IMG/VR virus record: IMGVR_UViG_3300050014_000178 | Coordinates: 1-36,366 of that record | DNA length: 36,366 bases | Reading direction: 5' to 3' (one strand) | From: a virus | Shown: positions 2,395 through 36,366 of the stretch, piece by piece | How the letters are laid out: each line of letters begins with the position of its first letter | How positions within the stretch are numbered: the stretch's first letter is position 1 | Position numbers and translations under genes: made by a program | The notes under the pieces: generated by a model | Seen by the model: the letters and a program-made list of their open reading frames with translations, nothing else | What the model was told of the DNA's origin: nothing | Databases searched by the model: none

Positions 2395-2619
2395 TTGTGT
2401 ACAGTTGCAAGTGTACACAAATGGAAATAGGCAAAATAGACGTTGATATAAATACAACGGGCAAATAACAGGGGTGATATGTGGTGGTGTGGTTGTACAC
2501 AAAACCATAAATAAACAGATTAGCGTTTGTGTACACTTACGTTATACCTATTCTAAAAAAAAATATAATATATATATATGTATTTATTATTCTAATACTA
2601 AACCCTAAGTGTACACAAA
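2395..2619. other. Candidate replication origin: five GTGTACAC-type sites around an AT-rich tract
   Basis: Five copies of a TGTACA-centred site occur within 225 bp: 2397-2403, 2411-2418, 2493-2500, 2529-2536 and 2609-2616. The first two form an inverted pair, TTGTGTACA (2395-2403) and TGTACACAA (2412-2420), with an 8-bp spacer. The last two form a perfect 14-bp inverted repeat around an A/T tract with a run of nine A and alternating TA. The surrounding 1 kb has no convincing gene and lies between divergent gene blocks, close to an SF3 helicase gene. Repeated sites plus an easily melted tract are typical of phage and plasmid origins; an operator array is the main alternative. Confidence 0.6.
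2526..2619. repeat. Perfect 14-bp inverted repeat flanking A/T tract
   Basis: TTTGTGTACACTTA (2526-2539) and its exact reverse complement TAAGTGTACACAAA (2606-2619) enclose 66 bp that are almost entirely A and T, including nine consecutive A and a (TA)n stretch. This geometry fits two initiator- or repressor-binding sites bracketing a DNA-unwinding element. Confidence 0.9.
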
Positions 2620-2929
2620 CAAGATCGCAAATAGCAGCATATATATAATGTATAGGCACTAACACCTAAGTAACAGAGGTGATGTTATACGTCGCACAAT
2701 ATACATTTTACGACGCAAAAGGCTGTATATATATATGTATTGTTTGATCATCATATATATAATGCCTGGAACAGCCAATAAACTAATCAGGCAATAAAAT
2801 GAATGAAATGTCAATAGTAGGGGGGGATAGGGTAGTTAATTGTGTTGATATGTACTTATACATCCCCCTCAAATTATTTACCGTATTTTACCTATTTGCA
2901 TATCCCACAGTTCATGTTCTAGTATATAG
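2620..2929. other. AT-rich non-coding segment with short repeats
   Basis: No credible gene is seen here. An open frame at 2799-3074 lacks a ribosome site and has no protein-like composition. The segment holds two copies of CATATATATAATG (starting near 2639 and 2752), an inverted CGTCG/CGACG pair (about 2691-2715) and an inverted TGCCTG/CAGGCA pair (2763-2793). These may extend the origin or regulatory region. Confidence 0.5.
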
Positions 2930-2989: not shown

Positions 2990-3003
2990 TGTTATAATAA
3001 ATA

Positions 3004-3040
3004 AAGACCTAGTGATACCCACCCTTACTAGGTCTTTTTT
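3004..3040 (+). terminator. Intrinsic terminator after the minigene
   Basis: A perfect 10-bp stem, AAGACCTAGT (3004-3013) with ACTAGGTCTT (3027-3036), has a 13-nt loop, and its end merges into a run of six T. It would end the short minigene transcript before the rightward genes. Confidence 0.85.
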
Positions 3041-3304: not shown

Positions 3305-3469
3305 ATGCAATATCAATTTAATCGTCCGGTGCGTGAGATACTGGGCTGGTTTGATGGGCGGGTGATCGGCATTGAGGCGATTACGGAGGATAAAATTCCT
3401 GGCTTCGCCAAAGAGTTTTTCGAGTTCCTTTCGGACCTAAATAATGGTAGGCTAAATTATCATGGGTAG
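3305..3469 (+). CDS. Small hypothetical protein (54 aa) coupled to the SF3 helicase
   Basis: ATG 3305 to TAG 3469, with AGGGGG about 14 bases upstream. The protein starts MQYQFNRPVREILGW and ends LNYHG, with a short helical KEFFEFLSDL segment. Its last eight bases overlap the start of the helicase gene, so the two are probably translated together. It is the first gene of the rightward operon. No domain is recognised; by position it could be a helicase partner or loader, but that is inference from neighbourhood only. Confidence 0.6.
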   Translation: MQYQFNRPVREILGWFDGRVIGIEAITEDKIPGFAKEFFEFLSDLNNGRLNYHG

Positions 3470-4853
3470 AAAATCAACAGTAGACTTGGCGGTGATTGAG
3501 GCAGAGATTGGCGACATGGAGGCGAAGGTGCCAATTAAAAAGCAACTGGCGGAGAGGTTGCGGTTTGACACGCGGATTGCGCGGTTCAAGGGGGCGACTA
3601 TTATTGAGGCGGATGGGCGTTGGCTCGACATGACGAGTGAGCGGTTTGCGGAGGCGTGCTACCGGCTGTTTGGTGATGGGCTGACGAAGAGTCGCGTTGG
3701 CGACCTGGAGCACCTCTTCCGCAGCACGGCGCCCGACCTCTCCTCGCTTGCCCATTTAATCGCGTTCGGCGACCGTGTCTGGGACACCCGCTCACTTTCG
3801 TGGGTCACTACCACTCCCGCCGAAGATTGCGTCTATAAGGTAAAATTTAACCCCAAAGATGGCAAAGAAAAGATACCGTTTTTGTTGGAGTTGGCGTGTG
3901 GAGACGAGGGTGTGTATGACGATATCATGCAGACTTGTGCCCCGCTGGTGATGGATAAAAAACCGACTGGCGTTATCTGGTACTTAGGTGGCGGAGCGAA
4001 TGGCAAATCCACCTTGGTCCATTTATTATATTTAATATTCGGGGATTACCTGACAGAGCTCACTGTAAAGCAACTGGAGGACGAACGTGACACACCGCAA
4101 CTCAATGGTAAGCTTGGAAATGTTTGTAAGGAGTCAAGCGAAGGGTTCGTGGAAGATACCCGCACTTACAAATCTATTGGAACTCATGAGTCCTTCTCTG
4201 TCCACAAATTCCACAGTCAGGATATGGTCGCCATCGAGGGCAATGTTCACCATATTTTTTCTGCCAACAACATCCCCACTTTCGGGGACAAAAGTTACGG
4301 TGCGAGAAGACGCACCCTCGTCATACCGTTTAACAATCGGTTTAGGCCAAACGAACAGTTCGAGGATATTACGTTCACGCCAGCGTTTATTGAACGATTT
4401 GTAGGCGAATTGCTGAAATACGCACGGATGCTCAAAGATCAAAGTTACGAGTATGTTTTTTCAGAGACAACCCGCAACATGAAAGAGAAATATGATACCG
4501 ATGCCAATACCGCGTCGACTTATGCCGACGAGTTGGTGGCCCAAGACATCTGCGGATTCCTGAACTTCAGATTGTTGGCGATCGACTACGAAAATTGGTG
4601 CCGTGATCATGGCTATAAGGAGTCGTCGATTAACGTGCTCCGTCGCGCTATGGATGACAAGGGATTCTCGCGCAAAACTGCCAGGAATACTGACGGATCG
4701 ACGTTCAAGGTATATGTCTACAAAAATACTAGCTATTCTGACCTCGATAATGCTAATGGTCGTCCTGGTTTGAAACAGTTGGCGGGCAGTGAGCATAGTG
4801 TCGAGTATGTGATGGACGAAAAAGAACAACAAAATTTATTGGGGAATTGGTAA
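3462..4853 (+). CDS. SF3/D5-type replicative helicase (phage primase-helicase family, primase domain absent)
   Basis: 463 residues. The C-terminal half has the superfamily 3 AAA+ core: Walker A GGGANGKST at residues 176-184 (Lys182), and further on the D5/P4 signature HIFSANNIPTF followed by YGARRRTLVIPF, which includes the arginine-rich sensor region. The N-terminal 150 residues look like the D5_N region that precedes the ATPase in poxvirus D5 and phage P4 alpha relatives. No archaeo-eukaryotic or DnaG primase domain is present, and none is found elsewhere. In this family a hexamer unwinds DNA at the origin, here probably the repeat-rich region just upstream. Codons near its start are more GC-rich than those of its neighbours. 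Confidence 0.9.
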   Translation: MGRKSTVDLAVIEAEIGDMEAKVPIKKQLAERLRFDTRIARFKGATIIEADGRWLDMTSERFAEACYRLFGDGLTKSRVGDLEHLFRSTAPDLSSLAHLIAFGDRVWDTRSLSWVTTTPAEDCVYKVKFNPKDGKEKIPFLLELACGDEGVYDDIMQTCAPLVMDKKPTGVIWYLGGGANGKSTLVHLLYLIFGDYLTELTVKQLEDERDTPQLNGKLGNVCKESSEGFVEDTRTYKSIGTHESFSVHKFHSQDMVAIEGNVHHIFSANNIPTFGDKSYGARRRTLVIPFNNRFRPNEQFEDITFTPAFIERFVGELLKYARMLKDQSYEYVFSETTRNMKEKYDTDANTASTYADELVAQDICGFLNFRLLAIDYENWCRDHGYKESSINVLRRAMDDKGFSRKTARNTDGSTFKVYVYKNTSYSDLDNANGRPGLKQLAGSEHSVEYVMDEKEQQNLLGNW

Positions 4854-23836: not shown

Positions 23837-24176
23837 CATATGGATCATATTGATTGGAATTATAGCAATCATCATGCTATGTAATTCGTTTTACATCCAC
23901 TACATCGTAAAAGACGGTGTTGCCCGCAAGATATTACTGTGGTTCAACGCCATATTTATCGTGTTTTTTATCCTTCGCACTATCGGCTATATTTTACTTA
24001 CCATGGGCGTGCTAAATATTTATACATCAAAGACCTATAACCAAGACATTTTCACACTTCTATACATAATCCCACTTGGTCAACAATGGTTACAGCGTAA
24101 TCATCGCGAACGCAATGAATCTGATAGAATGGAATCAGATAAGTTGGAACTTAAAGCAAGAAGGAAAAGAGGGTAA
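23829..24176 (+). CDS. Holin-like integral membrane protein (115 aa)
   Basis: The start is placed at ATG 23829 (frame open from TTG 23808). Three hydrophobic segments are visible: IWIILIGIIAIIMLC at the N-terminus, ILLWFNAIFIVFFIL in the middle and IGYILLTMGVLNIY after it, followed by a charged, Arg/Glu-rich C-terminal tail ending RRKRG. It lies directly before the lysozyme gene (four bases apart). Three transmembrane helices and a charged tail fit a class I holin that releases the endolysin. No sequence family is identified. Confidence 0.65.
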   Translation: MSNIWIILIGIIAIIMLCNSFYIHYIVKDGVARKILLWFNAIFIVFFILRTIGYILLTMGVLNIYTSKTYNQDIFTLLYIIPLGQQWLQRNHRERNESDRMESDKLELKARRKRG

Positions 24177-24180
24177 AACC

Positions 24181-25035
24181 ATGTCATTAAAAGGTATCGA
24201 CACAAGTAAGTGGCAAGCTGGTTTACCGGATGCCACTATCGAAGCTGATTTTATAATTTTCAAAGCGACAGAGGGGGTCGGCTATACTGACCTTGATTGC
24301 ACTGCTAGTTATGCCGAGGCAAAAGCCGCTGGCAAATTGCTAGGTGTTTATCACTTTGCACGACCTGATGGGAACGGCCCTATTGAAGAGGCTGACTGGT
24401 TCCTATCGCAAATTCAGGGTTATATTGGCGAGGCTATTATGGTGCTAGACTGGGAGCAAGACCCAAAGAGCAACGTGGCTTGGGCAAAACAATGGCTAGA
24501 CCGTGTCTATAATAAGACTGGTATCCGCCCTATGATCTATATGAGCACATCAGTCGTCAACAGTTATAACTGGTCGAGTGTCGCTGATGCTGGATATGCC
24601 CTCTGGGTAGCCCAATATGCCGATATGCAACCAGATTATAATTATGATATGAGTCATGCTGGTGCAGCGCCTGACGTTAACTGGTGGCCAGCTGGCTATG
24701 CTATGTGGCAATGGACATCAAGTGGAATTTTGAATGGATATGGTGGTCGACTAGATTGTAACCTGTTTTATGGTGATGCCAAGGCTTGGAAAGCGTTTGC
24801 CCAGGGTCATCCTGAAGTAGTTGTTATCCCGCCATCCCAACCTCAACCGCCAGTCGTAGTACCACCTGTCGTTACGCCACCTGTTGTAACCCCGCCGGTC
24901 GTGACTCCTCCAGTGGTAATTCCCCCAGTCGTCACCCCGCCTATCGTCAATCCGCCAGTAGTCATACCGCCAATCGAGACACTTTGGCAGAAAATATGGG
25001 CTTGGATAATTAGCTTTATAAAAGGAGTCAAATAA
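24181..25035 (+). CDS. GH25 lysozyme endolysin with PPVVx repeat linker and C-terminal amphipathic helix (284 aa)
   Basis: Cleaves the glycan strands of peptidoglycan (N-acetylmuramidase). GH25 signatures are clear: GIDTSKWQ with Asp7, and VLDWEQ with Asp90 and Glu92, the catalytic pair. The start at ATG 24181 fits the family; the frame is open further upstream but inside the holin-like gene. The catalytic domain ends near residue 212. A 51-residue proline-valine linker (about 217-267) follows, built of PPVVT-like five-residue repeats, and then a 17-residue aromatic/basic helix, LWQKIWAWIISFIKGVK, which could insert into a membrane. No typical cell-wall-binding domain is present. No spanin genes are nearby, as expected outside Gram-negative hosts. 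Confidence 0.95.
   Translation: MSLKGIDTSKWQAGLPDATIEADFIIFKATEGVGYTDLDCTASYAEAKAAGKLLGVYHFARPDGNGPIEEADWFLSQIQGYIGEAIMVLDWEQDPKSNVAWAKQWLDRVYNKTGIRPMIYMSTSVVNSYNWSSVADAGYALWVAQYADMQPDYNYDMSHAGAAPDVNWWPAGYAMWQWTSSGILNGYGGRLDCNLFYGDAKAWKAFAQGHPEVVVIPPSQPQPPVVVPPVVTPPVVTPPVVTPPVVIPPVVTPPIVNPPVVIPPIETLWQKIWAWIISFIKGVK
24844..24978 (+). repeat. Nine tandem PPVVx-type coding repeats
   Basis: Each 15-bp unit encodes two prolines, two (mostly) valines and a variable fifth residue (V, T, I or N), in the linker of the lysozyme. Codon choice varies between units, so the peptide pattern, not the DNA sequence, is conserved. Confidence 0.85.
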
Positions 25036-27781: not shown

Positions 27782-29008
27782 ATGGCTACAGAAATTGACA
27801 TCACCCAACCCGCCCAGATAGTGATGCAAATCACTGGTATTGGTGGGCCCAAGGGTGATTTCGGTGGCCCTCCAGGTCCAACCGGTCCCGCGGGGGCTAA
27901 TGGATCGACTGGTCCCACAGGTCCAACCGGTCCGACTGGGGCGACAGGGGCGAAGGGTGACAAGGGCGACACTGGGGCAACAGGATCGGCTGGTGCCAAA
28001 GGCACCAACGCTACTACGACCACCATCGTTGCGAGCGCTATCCCAACTGGAGCTGTCAACGGCGTTAACACGGCTTTTACGACGGCTTCAGCTTTTGCGT
28101 CTGGCACGCTTATTGTCTACAAGAACGGTATTCGTCTCAAAGGTGGCGGTAATGACTACACAGAGGGCGCTAGCTCGTTCACGATGGTCACAGCACCACA
28201 GACTGGCACTGTTTTGCTATGCGACTATATAGTCGTTCAGACGGCATCCTCAGTAGGCGTAAACACCATTACTACTGACGCGACCCCGACAGGTGCCGTG
28301 GACAACTCAAATACAGCATTCACTACCGGTCAATATATTGGTGGCTCACTTGAAGTCTATATCAACGGTGTCAAACAACAGAGAACGACTCACTTTACAG
28401 AGGTGTCTCCTGCGTCTGGCACGTTCACAATGAGCGATGCGCCTCTAACTGGTAGCAATATCCAAGTGAATTATCAGACCAACCTAGCGTCTACTGGAGC
28501 GGCTGACACGCTAGATGCTTTTCATGCTAGTCAAACACCTACAGCTAACCAAATATTGCCGTTAGACGCTAATGTTCGATTCCCTGCCTCTGTGTTGGGT
28601 GGAGCGTGGGCTACATTCACGCCAGTTTTTCCACTCATTAGTGGTGGAGCCGCAGTATGGGGCAATGCTACATTCGCTGGGGCATACACCCAAGTCGGCA
28701 AAACAGTATTTTTCAGAGCGAGTGTCATACTAGGCACGACAACTAATTTCACAGGGCTAACAGCTATCAACTTCACGCTCCCAGTAGCGACGATAGCTGC
28801 ACAAGTCAACCACTTCATAGGGCAGGCATTCTTCATGACAGGCTACCAGTTCGGCAGAGTGATGTGCGGGTCAACAACTAATTGTTATATCTGGTGTGAA
28901 CAGACTGGCGGGGCATATAACTCGGCATCCGATATTACTCCAACGATACCTCACGCATGGGCGTCCACGCATTCAATAACAATTCACGGAAGTTACGAGG
29001 TAGCATAA
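27782..29008 (+). CDS. Collagen-like tail fibre protein 2 (408 aa)
   Basis: Shares with fibre 1 a short N-terminal anchor ([20 protein letters not shown]) and a longer run of G-x-y collagen triplets (about 22-74). Two tandem copies of a beta domain follow: the first starts [15 protein letters not shown] (about 87), the second [15 protein letters not shown] (about 168), each with a VYxNGxx(L/Q)xxxxxYTE-like core. The C-terminal domain ([20 protein letters not shown] to the end) is a fibre-tip type fold. The shared anchor suggests both fibres attach at the same site. Strong AAGGAG ribosome site. Confidence 0.85.
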
Positions 29009-32048: not shown

Positions 32049-32765
32049 TTACCAATCTCCCAATTCGTGTTGATTATTTTGTTCTATTTCTGCCGGTGCA
32101 TCGCCCATGAAGTCAAATACGTTCTCCATGTCGAATACGCTTATGTCCTGATTTAGAGGCTCTGGGACGGCCAATTCTAGCCATTCGATGAACTCTGGGT
32201 CAGGGTAAACACGGATTACTTTCACTTTTTTAGTGTTTAGGTTGACAGCGATAAAGTCGCACCATGCCCGACCAGATGCCCAAAGTTGCCCTTGGATTTG
32301 TCTCCACCACTTCTGTGGGACGCCTTCTGATAGGATCGTGGTAAAACTGTTGTCTCTGACTATTTTGATTTCGACTAAACCGTCATCACCGACACCGCCA
32401 TCTGGCGATGCGACAAAGTGCTCGTTATACCAGCACCCGACTTCAAACACCTTAACGCCGCAAATTTTCTCGTATTGCTGACGCGCAAAGTCTTCGTAGT
32501 CGATGCCATCTTGCATAGCTGGGCTAATGAAGTTGTCGAAAGCTGTCCCGAAGGCGCGTTCGAATAGGATCTCTTTTTCATAGTCCAGACGTGCTTTAAG
32601 GGGCTTGCCTTTGGTTTTCTCGGCTCGACTAACTGATAGCCAGTCGTCTAGGCGTGATGCTGTGACCTTGCCTAAACGGATGTCAAACCACTCAGCGGTT
32701 CGCTGGGGCCCAGCAAAATAGCTAAACCCCTTTGGTGCCTTGATACTATTCAAAAGGGAAGACAT
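32049..32765 (-). CDS. YqaJ/lambda-type exonuclease (238 aa)
   Basis: A PD-(D/E)xK exonuclease of the YqaJ viral recombinase family, which digests one strand of duplex DNA to prepare recombination. Seen: the family opening RTAEWFDIRLGKVTASRL, then SPDGGVGDDGLVEIKIV, which supplies the catalytic Asp, Glu and Lys, then WWRQIQGQLWASG, the conserved Gln helix. The start is placed at ATG 32765, with GGAGA upstream and a 20-base overlap with the SSB-like gene. It partners the SSB-like and Sak4-like genes in a recombination module. Confidence 0.92.
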   Translation of the reverse strand: MSSLLNSIKAPKGFSYFAGPQRTAEWFDIRLGKVTASRLDDWLSVSRAEKTKGKPLKARLDYEKEILFERAFGTAFDNFISPAMQDGIDYEDFARQQYEKICGVKVFEVGCWYNEHFVASPDGGVGDDGLVEIKIVRDNSFTTILSEGVPQKWWRQIQGQLWASGRAWCDFIAVNLNTKKVKVIRVYPDPEFIEWLELAVPEPLNQDISVFDMENVFDFMGDAPAEIEQNNQHELGDW

Positions 32766-33285
32766 CTTCGACGTTCTCCGGCGTGATCTCTCCACCACCC
32801 ATTTCGTTAATAACAGCGGTCGCATCTGACACATTCTTCATTTTTGGCTCGTAACCGTAAATGTTTTTGTTCAGTTGGTCGTATTCTCGACCGTTAGATT
32901 TGCTGGTGTACTTTTCGCCAGTCTTTTCGACTAGCAGCCAACATTCTTTGCCGCGCAAGGCTTCACAAAGTTTCAATAACTCGTCAGTGTCTTTGACGGC
33001 ATCAATCGCTTTGCGGGTCTTCTCTTTGGCAGCGTCATTAACGGCGTTGTGAACGAATATAGCGCGGATAGTGTTAAAGCTGTATGGCTTTGCCTTCTCA
33101 GTAAAATAGACGCGGGCATTGCCCTCTTCGCCACCTTCGCCGACCAGCTCGAACTCAAAATACTCTGATCCCTTATCGGTCTCGCCAGCTTTCACGCTGA
33201 CTATCTGTACCTTGAATATGCCTTCGCCAAAATAGTTATTGTTAAACACTTTTTCTACCTTGTCCTCATCTGTGAATTTTGCCAT
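32746..33285 (-). CDS. SSB-like / DUF669-type ssDNA-binding protein (179 aa)
   Basis: The N-terminal region (GIFKVQIVSVKAGETDKG, then YFEFELVGEGG) looks like the OB-fold-like opening of DUF669 phage proteins, which are taken to bind single-stranded DNA. The centre is helical (AIFVHNAVNDAAKEKTRKA). The protein ends EDVFPFE, a short acidic, aromatic tail closely resembling the DDxxPF tip through which bacterial SSB recruits partner enzymes. It sits between the exonuclease and the Sak4-like ATPase, as expected in a recombination module. Confidence 0.7.
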   Translation of the reverse strand: MAKFTDEDKVEKVFNNNYFGEGIFKVQIVSVKAGETDKGSEYFEFELVGEGGEEGNARVYFTEKAKPYSFNTIRAIFVHNAVNDAAKEKTRKAIDAVKDTDELLKLCEALRGKECWLLVEKTGEKYTSKSNGREYDQLNKNIYGYEPKMKNVSDATAVINEMGGGEITPENVEDVFPFE

Positions 33286-33822: not shown

Positions 33823-34518
33823 TTATTTTACCTTTCCTACTTTAACTGATTTCTTCGGCAACTCCCAACCGATAGCGGTTAAGAATGACTCGATATCACC
33901 AAAATCGACCTTACCAGCCATGATCTCCCGCTTACTGATTATGTTTGCTTTGTGCTTTTCACCATCAAATGATGTTAACACCTGAGCATCCATAAATCGA
34001 GTGAGTAGTCGGATGTTCTTGAACTCGCTATCAAGCATTATAGACCCACTAATGTCGTCTATACGGCGCTTGATGTAGCTAAGCACAATCACATTCATGT
34101 TGATGTTGGCAAGGGCATTAGCGAAGGCTGAGACGCGTGAGTTGAGCACGCCTGTGGCACGACCGTAAGGCACATCATTAAGTGATGCGATGTTCTTACC
34201 ATCGGTTGTCTTGAAACCTTGCTTATTGAACTCGTCTAACACGCCTTTGGTGAAGATATCGACAATGCCCTCAATCGTGTCGATAACAAGAGTTTTATAA
34301 TCTTTGCTCTTGACACCCAACTCCATTGCCTCACGGATATCGGTGACACTCTTCACGTTAACAGCATGTAGACCCGCTTTGGCTGCGTTGCCATCGGTGC
34401 TAATAAATAGCGGTGACGGTGACTTGGCGGCCAAGGTGGTTTTACCGGCGAATGGTTCGCCTATGACCAGGAACTTGCTCGGTGCTTGTGGTGTAGCTTT
34501 TACGATTTCTACGGTCAT
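33823..34518 (-). CDS. Sak4-like RecA-fold ATPase (231 aa)
   Basis: A phage recombination ATPase of the AAA_24/Sak4 type, which helps pair single-stranded DNA together with an SSB. Walker A GEPFAGKTT is at residues 20-28 (Lys26) and Walker B TLVIDTIEG has Asp80 and Glu83. Other features are YIKRRIDDISG, typical of the family's sensor region, and a basic C-terminus. No DnaB-type extras are present. Coupled by TAATG to the ribbon-helix-helix gene and followed by the 30-aa, Acb2/Tad1-like, SSB-like and exonuclease genes. Confidence 0.85.
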   Translation of the reverse strand: MTVEIVKATPQAPSKFLVIGEPFAGKTTLAAKSPSPLFISTDGNAAKAGLHAVNVKSVTDIREAMELGVKSKDYKTLVIDTIEGIVDIFTKGVLDEFNKQGFKTTDGKNIASLNDVPYGRATGVLNSRVSAFANALANINMNVIVLSYIKRRIDDISGSIMLDSEFKNIRLLTRFMDAQVLTSFDGEKHKANIISKREIMAGKVDFGDIESFLTAIGWELPKKSVKVGKVK

Positions 34519-34679
34519 TATGCTTCCTCCAGCTCTCGCTTATAAGATTCAATCGCGCATCTTACCACATAGCTGACACTGACCTGATCGGCGTCGGCAA
34601 GGTTGCGGACGTACTCAATCAAGCCAATCGGCAATGATATGCTGATTGTCTCTTTTACGTTGATTTGTTTTTTGACCAT
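34518..34679 (-). CDS. Ribbon-helix-helix regulator (53 aa)
   Basis: 53 residues in the Arc/CopG pattern: a short N-terminal beta strand (ETISISLP), then helix 1 (GLIEYVRNLADAD), a turn and helix 2 (SYVVRCAIESYKREL). Such proteins bind DNA as dimers through the strand pair and repress promoters. AGGAGG precedes the start. An operator-like TTAGTGCTAA overlaps the expected transcription start of this unit (34866-34875), so self-repression is a reasonable guess. It is the only clear transcription regulator in the window. Confidence 0.75.
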   Translation of the reverse strand: MVKKQINVKETISISLPIGLIEYVRNLADADQVSVSYVVRCAIESYKRELEEA

Positions 34680-34938: not shown

Positions 34939-36183
34939 TCATAACTGCTCCTTCCATTGGCTTGCTTGAAAATCATTTTTACCGCGCAAACACTGATAGA
35001 TATCCTCCTCAATACTATTCGGTGTCCTAAAGTTATAAAACGTCGTCTTTTGTGTTTGGCCGTTGCGGTAGACACGACCAACACTCTGGATATATTCGGC
35101 GTAGCTATATGTCGGTGAAAAGTAGATCACTTGCGTGGCGTAGGTCATTTCCACGCCAGTGCTGCCGGACTTGTAATGAGATAGGGTGATGGTGCGCTTG
35201 GTGGTAGCCCATTCGCTCTTCGTCGGTAGTTCGTGGTGTTGTCCGTTCTGTCTGAAAACCAGGCGGTCACTGTGTTTCTTTGATATCATTTCTGATATAG
35301 CATCGTGCTCGGTGACGTAGTTGTAGAATATGACGATATTCTCGTCGGTGCCCTCAATCAAATCTGATAGATAGTCTAGTTTACCTTTGGTAAGTGTCTG
35401 GCGGAGCGCGTGTGCCAAGGCTGAAGGGTTGTCTAATATATCACCAGCCAGATTTTGGCGGGATATTATAGTTTTTAGATATTCCTTCGGTCGCGTAAAG
35501 TCGACGCCTATGAATTGACGATCCGGCAAGTCTAGCGCCTGTGCCTTGGTTAATCGGCGTGACATCCCTTGCCATTGCCCAGCCATTTCGCCTTCGTGCC
35601 AGTAGTTAATCAGTTCAGGAAAACCCTTATAAGTAACATAATTGCAATAGCGTTTTTTGAATTCTGTGATATTTCTAACAAAACTAAACATTTTGCTATA
35701 GTTCGCGAAGTCGATCCAGCCATTTGGTAATGGTGTAGCTGATAGCCCCACGAAGAATTTAGCATCCTTCGCAGCATAATACATAGCTTGCCCCGCCCCG
35801 CTCTGCGGATTCTTCGCCTTGTGCACCTCATCGGCTATAACCGCCCATTGTCGACCACCATACTGTGGCGCATACTGGTGCCAGATTGCCCGCTTGCCTT
35901 TTCTGAACTGTTCTAGCGACGGCTCGCGACTGAACTTTTCGTAGCTGTATATGTGATATTCAGGCTCGTTGCCTTCACCAAAATATTCAGTAATTTCGCG
36001 CTCCCAGTCTTTTGTTCGGACCTTGGATGCGGGTGCCACGATTAGTAGTGGCGTGCCAGATGCAAGGCGCTTGTAATGCTCTAGCGCCATGAAAGTCTTG
36101 CCAGTGCCAGTGTCGGCTGCCATGATGGCGCGTGGTGGTAGCTTGTCCAGGTATTTAAGTTGATATTCGTATAGTTTAATCAT
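34939..36183 (-). CDS. SNF2-type DNA helicase/translocase (414 aa)
   Basis: A superfamily 2 ATPase that moves on duplex DNA. Motifs: Gln8 in a YEYQ motif, Walker A DTGTGKT at residues 24-30, Walker B with ADEVHKAK near 117 (DEVH), motif III GLSATPLPNGW, and motif VI QSVGRVYRNGQTQKT, whose arginines complete the active site, as in SNF2/Rad54-like phage proteins. The full-length core has no extra nuclease domain. It starts within the stop of the 99-aa gene that crosses the circle junction and ends just before the promoter of the next unit. It probably supports recombination or replication restart. Confidence 0.93.
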   Translation of the reverse strand: MIKLYEYQLKYLDKLPPRAIMAADTGTGKTFMALEHYKRLASGTPLLIVAPASKVRTKDWEREITEYFGEGNEPEYHIYSYEKFSREPSLEQFRKGKRAIWHQYAPQYGGRQWAVIADEVHKAKNPQSGAGQAMYYAAKDAKFFVGLSATPLPNGWIDFANYSKMFSFVRNITEFKKRYCNYVTYKGFPELINYWHEGEMAGQWQGMSRRLTKAQALDLPDRQFIGVDFTRPKEYLKTIISRQNLAGDILDNPSALAHALRQTLTKGKLDYLSDLIEGTDENIVIFYNYVTEHDAISEMISKKHSDRLVFRQNGQHHELPTKSEWATTKRTITLSHYKSGSTGVEMTYATQVIYFSPTYSYAEYIQSVGRVYRNGQTQKTTFYNFRTPNSIEEDIYQCLRGKNDFQASQWKEQL

Positions 36184-36366
36184 TACTAATCCCCAACAAC
36201 TTTTTAAGGTCCCACGCTACTTCATCAACAGTTTGATAATCCATATTCCACTCAAGCGTTATACGTTGCCGCCAACCCGAACCGTTTTTCTCGGCACTCT
36301 TTTCTGCTATGATAACAATAGCTTCGTAGTCGGTATCTTTGCGATGGGAGTCAAGATTTACAGTAG
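36176..36366 (-). CDS. C-terminal part of the junction-crossing 99-aa hypothetical protein
   Basis: The frame enters from the window end (through the repeat copy 36272-36366) and stops at TAA 36178-36176, eight bases inside the SNF2-type helicase gene. The final residues read LKKLLGISND. Joined to the part at 1-204 it forms one 99-aa gene with no frameshift, which supports circularity. Function unknown. Confidence 0.8.
   Translation of the reverse strand, partial: TVNLDSHRKDTDYEAIVIIAEKSAEKNGSGWRQRITLEWNMDYQTVDEVAWDLKKLLGISND
36272..36366. repeat. Terminal direct repeat, right copy
   Basis: Identical over 95 bases to 1-95. See the left copy for interpretation. Treat one copy as redundant when joining the circle. 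Confidence 0.95.

Follow-up and report, generated by a model that had tools for sequence, protein, structure and literature searches.

Where does a full-size phage that has not been cultured begin to copy its DNA, and which protein recognizes the site? The question is raised by the region 2395-2620 of the window, the whole stretch of 36,366 bp analysed here, which a sequence-only reading had put forward as a candidate replication origin with repeated sites flanking an A/T tract. We find it very likely that this region, probably extending to about 2714, is the phage replication origin and that it is of the self-loading-helicase/iteron type. Direct support comes from the sites themselves and the conservation of their geometry, from their occurrence in relatives on the upstream side of the same helicase gene, and from the fold family of that helicase and a switch in skew.

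Repeat sites and genomic setting

The window is an entire IMG/VR virus record. It carries a 95-bp direct repeat at its ends (1-95 and 36272-36366), so the assembly is either circular or terminally redundant and measures about 36,271 bp when closed into a circle. It encodes its own terminase and capsid proteins, the terminase gene lying elsewhere than the repeat region; a glycosyl hydrolase 25 lysin (24076-25035) and a collagen-repeat protein (27782-29008) were also noted. The repeats sit between a leftward gene block and the rightward block that contains an SF3 helicase gene (Table 1), 843 bp from the helicase ORF, in agreement with the divergent setting and the distance of about 850 bp given earlier. 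As had also been proposed, the region is non-coding in effect: a mechanical 68-aa GTG ORF on the minus strand (2330-2536) has no blastp match in the compared records. Searches for Rfam families and tRNAs found none. Between the repeats and the helicase gene lies a nine-codon ORF, MGKKGKKKC (2960-2989), preceded by an AAAGGAG-like sequence. After the ORF comes a hairpin (3000-3040) that carries a run of T. No counterpart of this lysine-rich ORF was found in the relatives with a weak pattern that also missed the window's own copy.

The sequence GTGTACAC occurs exactly three times in the 36,366 bp, all within 206 bp (at 2411, 2529, and 2609). Dinucleotide shuffles contain it 0.46 times on average, and none of 100 shuffles reached three copies. 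Two one-mismatch copies are found in the same region, GTGTACAG at 2397 and TTGTACAC at 2493. Genome-wide, such one-mismatch copies are not enriched (8 found versus 13.9 expected); the signal is the clustering of the sites, not a general excess. The palindrome GTGTACAC, which the sequence-only reading had taken as the recognition unit, was rejected in this role because its middle dinucleotide varies among relatives, whereas AAGTGT and ACAA stay constant. Alignment with relatives instead indicates a directional 12-mer, AAGTGTnnACAA, in which nn is AC, CT or CC. The five sites reported previously are indeed clustered, and they resolve into three perfect copies of the 12-mer, one near copy, and one half-site within 2395-2618.

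Two of the perfect copies, iterons 4 and 5, face inward across an A/T-rich spacer. The inverted repeat that encloses this spacer is perfect, as described, and extends over 15 bp rather than 14. The spacer had been called 66 bp of nearly pure A/T; it measures 68 bp and is rich rather than pure, and the A+T-richest 60 bp of the genome start within it, at 2542.

Table 1. Features of the candidate origin and its surroundings in the window.
Feature	Position	Strand	Remarks
Iteron 1, TTGTGTACAGTT	2395..2406	+	One mismatch to TTGTnnACACTT; head-to-head with iteron 2; conserved column block
Iteron 2, AAGTGTACACAA on the + strand	2409..2420	-	Conserved in the alignment
Accessory motif, AACAGGGGT	2467..2475	+	Common to origins with different iterons
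Iteron 3, half-site, GGTTGTACACAA	2491..2502	-	Conservation limited to the TGTnnaCAAA half
Iteron 4, TTGTGTACACTT	2527..2538	+	Left arm of the perfect inverted repeat (2525-2539)
A/T-rich spacer	2539..2606	.	Presumed melting tract (DUE); 68 bp, 84% A+T
Iteron 5, AAGTGTACACAA	2607..2618	-	Right arm of the perfect inverted repeat (2606-2620)
Second accessory motif copy, AACAGAGGT	2672..2680	+	Common to origins with different iterons
Imperfect palindrome, GTCGCACAATATACATTTTACGAC	2691..2714	.	GTCGYACAA-N6-TTGTRCGAC with one mismatch; similar offset in several relatives
54-aa ORF	3305-3469		Start of the rightward block
SF3 (D5-type, DUF5906) helicase	3462..4853	+	Predicted C-terminal winged helix; presumed initiator
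Exonuclease	32049-32834		Leftward gene
AAA_24 protein	33823-34518		Leftward gene
DEAD/SNF2-like helicase	34939-36183		Leftward gene

Conservation of the repeat cluster among relatives

A helicase scan of IMG/VR returned three close relatives (65-70% identity), and an alignment scan brought the number to 14 records in all. A terminase scan added 71 loci, and 10 of 17 records then tested carry the helicase. The resulting set comprises 25 helicase-bearing records including the window, so that a homologous SF3 (D5/DUF5906) helicase is present in 24 other IMG/VR records, all of which were fetched whole. Terminase, capsid, and replication genes are common to the window and the helicase-bearing records tested, and the named phages that come nearest are only remotely related. 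A search with the first 20 kb of the window gave no close DNA match. Two genome-contig scans for a host, with the SF3 helicase and the terminase, yielded candidate stretches and no relative. Among the papers listed by literature searches, none was recognized as treating this phage family or site.

Counting the window, at least 20 of the 25 records carry repeats clustered upstream of the helicase gene. Thirteen were identified by a blind genome-wide statistic, which counts two-orientation 10-mer clusters per 300 bp; in these the helicase-upstream cluster outranks every other 300-bp interval of the record. Five (G003, G007, G010, G014, and G016) were recognized by eye and tie with or lose to other repeats by the statistic. 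The remaining two were reached through the AACAGRGGT motif described below: in G025 (about 33.4-33.75 kb) and G026 (about 19.9-20.3 kb), an A/T tract is surrounded by repeats of the TGTTACA type. Their distance upstream from the helicase is some 8-10 kb, the 8-kb figure for G025 holding only if that record, which has no end repeats, is circular. No clear cluster was seen in five records: G023 has none, G022 has the second module only, G015 has a weak one, and G009 and G020 are cut off upstream.

When the window is aligned with its three closest relatives, 41 of the 60 columns within sites are invariant, versus 58 of 361 columns outside (p 7e-16), a count in which the aligner can lean on the sites; in this alignment the sites appear as islands of conservation. 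By inspection, the four phages share the layout of an inverted pair, a half-site, and an inward pair around the A/T tract. The spacer of the inward pair measures 68, 67, 68, 68, 59, and 54 bp in G000-G005, respectively, and no outward-facing pair was found in these six. The iteron sequence itself differs, each phage having its own version (GTGTACAC, GTGTCTAC, GTGTTTAC, TGGTTTAC, or TGTTACA types). More remote relatives have GTGTTTACAA (G007), TGGTTTACA (G008 and G010), ATGTTTACA (G013), GTGTCTAG (G011), CTGTATACA (G028), TGTAACGAA (G019), and TGTTACAAA (G024). In most records the A+T-richest 60 bp lie at the cluster. The sites are present in relatives at the corresponding position, in lineage-specific versions.

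A second module beside the repeats

Two further elements accompany the iterons. The motif AACAGRGGY is concentrated at the clusters, 35 of its 79 occurrences lying within 400 bp of the iteron centre (19 records; binomial p about 3e-36, with these stretches amounting to 2.3% of the sequence), and its placement is independent of iteron type. The palindrome GTCGYACAA-N6-TTGTRCGAC, allowing up to four mismatches, has 15 matches in the 21 records with an assigned origin, and 9 of these matches are 161-233 bp away from the iteron centre. At this threshold, 2-13 matches in all arise in block-shuffled sequence, so weak palindrome matches mean little, yet all six matches with one mismatch or none are located at the origin. 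In G022, where iterons are not visible, the palindrome (one mismatch) lies beside AACAGGGGT. The exact palindrome is present in 68 IMG/VR stretches, and AACAGRGGY is nearby in 22 of them (about 0.01 expected per locus); 4 of the 22 were already in the record set and 1 falls just outside the stated 150 bp. The palindrome spacers are often TATATC/TGTATA-like.

The AACAGRGGT motifs and, in some phages, the GTCG palindrome form a second, more constant module, which may be an early promoter, a site for a host factor or one for recombination/resolution. In dif sites, too, two arms enclose a 6-bp spacer, and with AACAGRGGT copies beside such a palindrome the whole locus could be read as serving recombination, partition or packaging, the repeats and the palindrome together being an att-, res-, centromere- or pac-like site. 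We regard this as highly improbable: no tyrosine integrase (PF00589) or serine resolvase was found in 22 records, the palindrome is recognizable in only 9 of the 21 origin-assigned records while iteron clusters are nearly universal, and the terminase gene is located elsewhere. Within the preferred reading as a replication origin, we tentatively consider a two-part organization, itself rather unlikely, in which a fast-changing iteron/A-T cassette of constant geometry would be joined to this slowly changing module. The factor that recognizes the module would be common to phages that share hosts; it could, for instance, be a replication factor of the host or an Xer-like recombinase that resolves multimers.

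Skew

Cumulative GC skew had been proposed as a check on the origin. On the circle, the detrended GC-skew minimum of the window lies 681 bp from the iteron centre, and the undetrended minimum lies at 36325, about 2.4 kb away. The detrended minimum is 224-737 bp from the iteron centre in seven of nine circular records (window included), the outliers being G010 (1456 bp) and G011 (11.3 kb), and the purine-skew minimum is within about 1.2 kb in all nine. Because skew is confounded with gene direction, which also switches at the region, the skew is consistent with an origin and is not independent proof. Neither of the two computable checks, skew and occurrence in relatives, speaks against an origin at this position.

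The SF3 helicase as presumed initiator

The consensus DnaA box is TTATNCACA. The repeats seen here differ from it and also differ between phages. The suggestion that a phage protein rather than DnaA is the initiator fits, since the repeats vary from phage to phage and the helicase encoded nearby is similar to self-loading initiators. Two small proteins had been named beside the helicase as possible binders, the 54-aa protein (3305-3469) and a ribbon-helix-helix protein (34518-34679, PF01402). Neither has a match in the other 25 records of the local set, and they are therefore unsupported as initiators.

The 463-aa helicase matches DUF5906 and phage primase-helicase families, and 9 of 22 family members give weak Pox_D5 matches. 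A profile of 22 relatives has as its best PDB match 7ola, the SaPI5 primase-helicase (E 7e-20). For the AlphaFold model (pLDDT 84.5), the SaPI5 primase-helicase ranks first (Foldseek E 1e-16), and VIA superposes the two with a Z score of 26.7 over 394 residues (rmsd 5.6). The C-terminal 103 residues (345-447), modelled alone, form helices and a two-stranded wing (pLDDT 92). The structural matches of this domain are weak and mostly to winged-helix proteins (VIA Z at most 6.3), with no Foldseek match at E<=0.001; the P4 origin-binding domain is not among the matches listed for it, which excludes nothing. By homology and predicted fold, the protein is assigned as a D5-type SF3 helicase with a C-terminal winged helix. 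A C5-cytosine DNA methylase gene (PF00145, 4855-6294) directly follows the helicase gene; it adjoins the helicase in G003 too and has no match in the other close relatives.

By analogy with published initiators, this helicase would be the protein that binds the iterons. Coevolution of its winged helix with the iterons was not supported: a partial Mantel test of the winged helix against the site, given the ATPase core, returned -0.20 (p 0.94). Distances of the DEAD helicase or the capsid are at least as good predictors of the site as SF3 helicase distances. In these tests the iteron words were hand-chosen, and their register is uncertain for G008, G010, G013, and G024-G026. Site similarity tracks general phage relatedness, and hence the SF3 helicase is not singled out as the binder.

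The lack of a specific tie between helicase and site identity would also suit a divergent early control region, in which the repeats are operators of a phage transcription regulator acting on both blocks and replication starts elsewhere. The position of the repeats between divergent blocks agrees with this, as does the HTH_3 gene that separates the sites from the helicase in one relative, G004/L007, the record covered for HTH_3. However, promoter-like matches number 3, versus 6.7 in shuffles, no regulator gene common to the family was seen, the 54-aa and ribbon-helix-helix proteins are absent from relatives, and both the A/T spacer and the inward geometry are as in known origins. A control region of this kind alone is therefore unlikely. 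A combined function, in which origin iterons also autoregulate neighbouring transcription and some sites serve control only, is a possibility to be taken seriously, if somewhat doubtful; the extra head-to-head pair (2395-2420) is kept in the four closest phages, away from the A/T tract.

For the preferred reading as an origin, the following sequence of events can be proposed. Subunits of the SF3 helicase would bind the directional iterons AAGTGTnnACAA through the C-terminal winged helix. With the iterons at 2527 and 2607 facing inward, complexes would come to sit at both flanks of the 68-bp A/T tract; the tract would melt, and helicase hexamers would load and run outward in both directions. 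Melting of the tract and the start of replication in this region are proposed from published relatives.

Comparison with known origins

In the excerpts of the cited papers used here, SaPI Rep recognizes its iterons through the C-terminal domain (PMC7581432, PMC6092414), and PICI origins consist of an AT-rich region flanked by two iteron sets (PMC6092414). The window resembles these systems in having a presumed SF3/D5-type initiator, an A/T-rich tract with iteron clusters to its left and right, and a helicase whose nearest solved structure is the SaPI5 primase-helicase. It differs in several respects. Known origins of this type lie immediately 3' of rep, whereas the present one lies upstream of the helicase ORF between divergent blocks; the helicase lacks a fused primase; and an extra AACAGRGGT/GTCG module is present. 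Moreover, PICIs are integrase-bearing satellites that parasitize a helper, whereas the window is a full-size phage that encodes a capsid and a terminase of its own and has no PF00589 match. There is good support for an iteron origin like those of PICIs and SaPIs in this family of full-size phages, one whose position has changed and to which a constant module has been added.

Excerpts on SCCmec Cch2 describe a D5/Primase_Cterm helicase whose C-terminal domain binds AAGTG iterons (PMC7581432). The putative origin of Cch2 has three short direct repeats 3' of its gene, whereas the window has 12-bp directional, partly inverted sites around A/T; the AAGTG common to both may be due to chance, being five bases. 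The alpha protein of bacteriophage P4, with its ori/crr, is, as excerpted from PMC4234260, a helicase of the same broad group whose C-terminal winged helix binds iterons. In this comparison at the level of the proteins, it differs in having a fused primase.

Origins of Streptococcus thermophilus Sfi21-type and lactococcal phages are likewise noncoding and located in the replication module, according to the part of PMC6356513 consulted. They differ in their TGTTACCGT-type iterons and position, and helicase identity is about 26%. Among six named phages with remote helicase homologues, four have repeat clusters beside the helicase gene: just 3' of a D5-type helicase in Lactococcus Dub35A and Streptococcus PY7, just 3' in the Streptococcus satellite Javan175, and upstream in Paenibacillus LincolnB. 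No adjacent cluster was seen in Listeria P40 and Microbacterium Ashton. In Javan175, AAGTGTAGT iterons form a perfect inverted repeat of 18 bp just 3' of the VirE gene and are separated by 67 nt; these iterons face inward like those of the window, but the spacer is only 67% A+T. A further record, G006 (L009), was found only through the site pattern, with AAGTGTACACAA-matching sites around an A/T tract. It has eleven GTGTACAC-type sites at 2467-2769, right 3' of a VapE-like helicase gene, and no other genes in common with the window were detected. The same recognition sequence occurs in another helicase lineage.

Discussion

The constant second module marks origins by sequence alone and led to them in two records in which searching next to the helicase had been unsuccessful. 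If a two-part organization is correct, iteron turnover would make the origin of each phage private and limit its cross-use by rivals or satellites. The family is of interest as a comparative system, though it reveals no new initiation principle. In these full-size uncultured phages, homologous helicases are accompanied by many naturally occurring versions of the iteron, which makes them a natural experiment on the evolution of initiator specificity.
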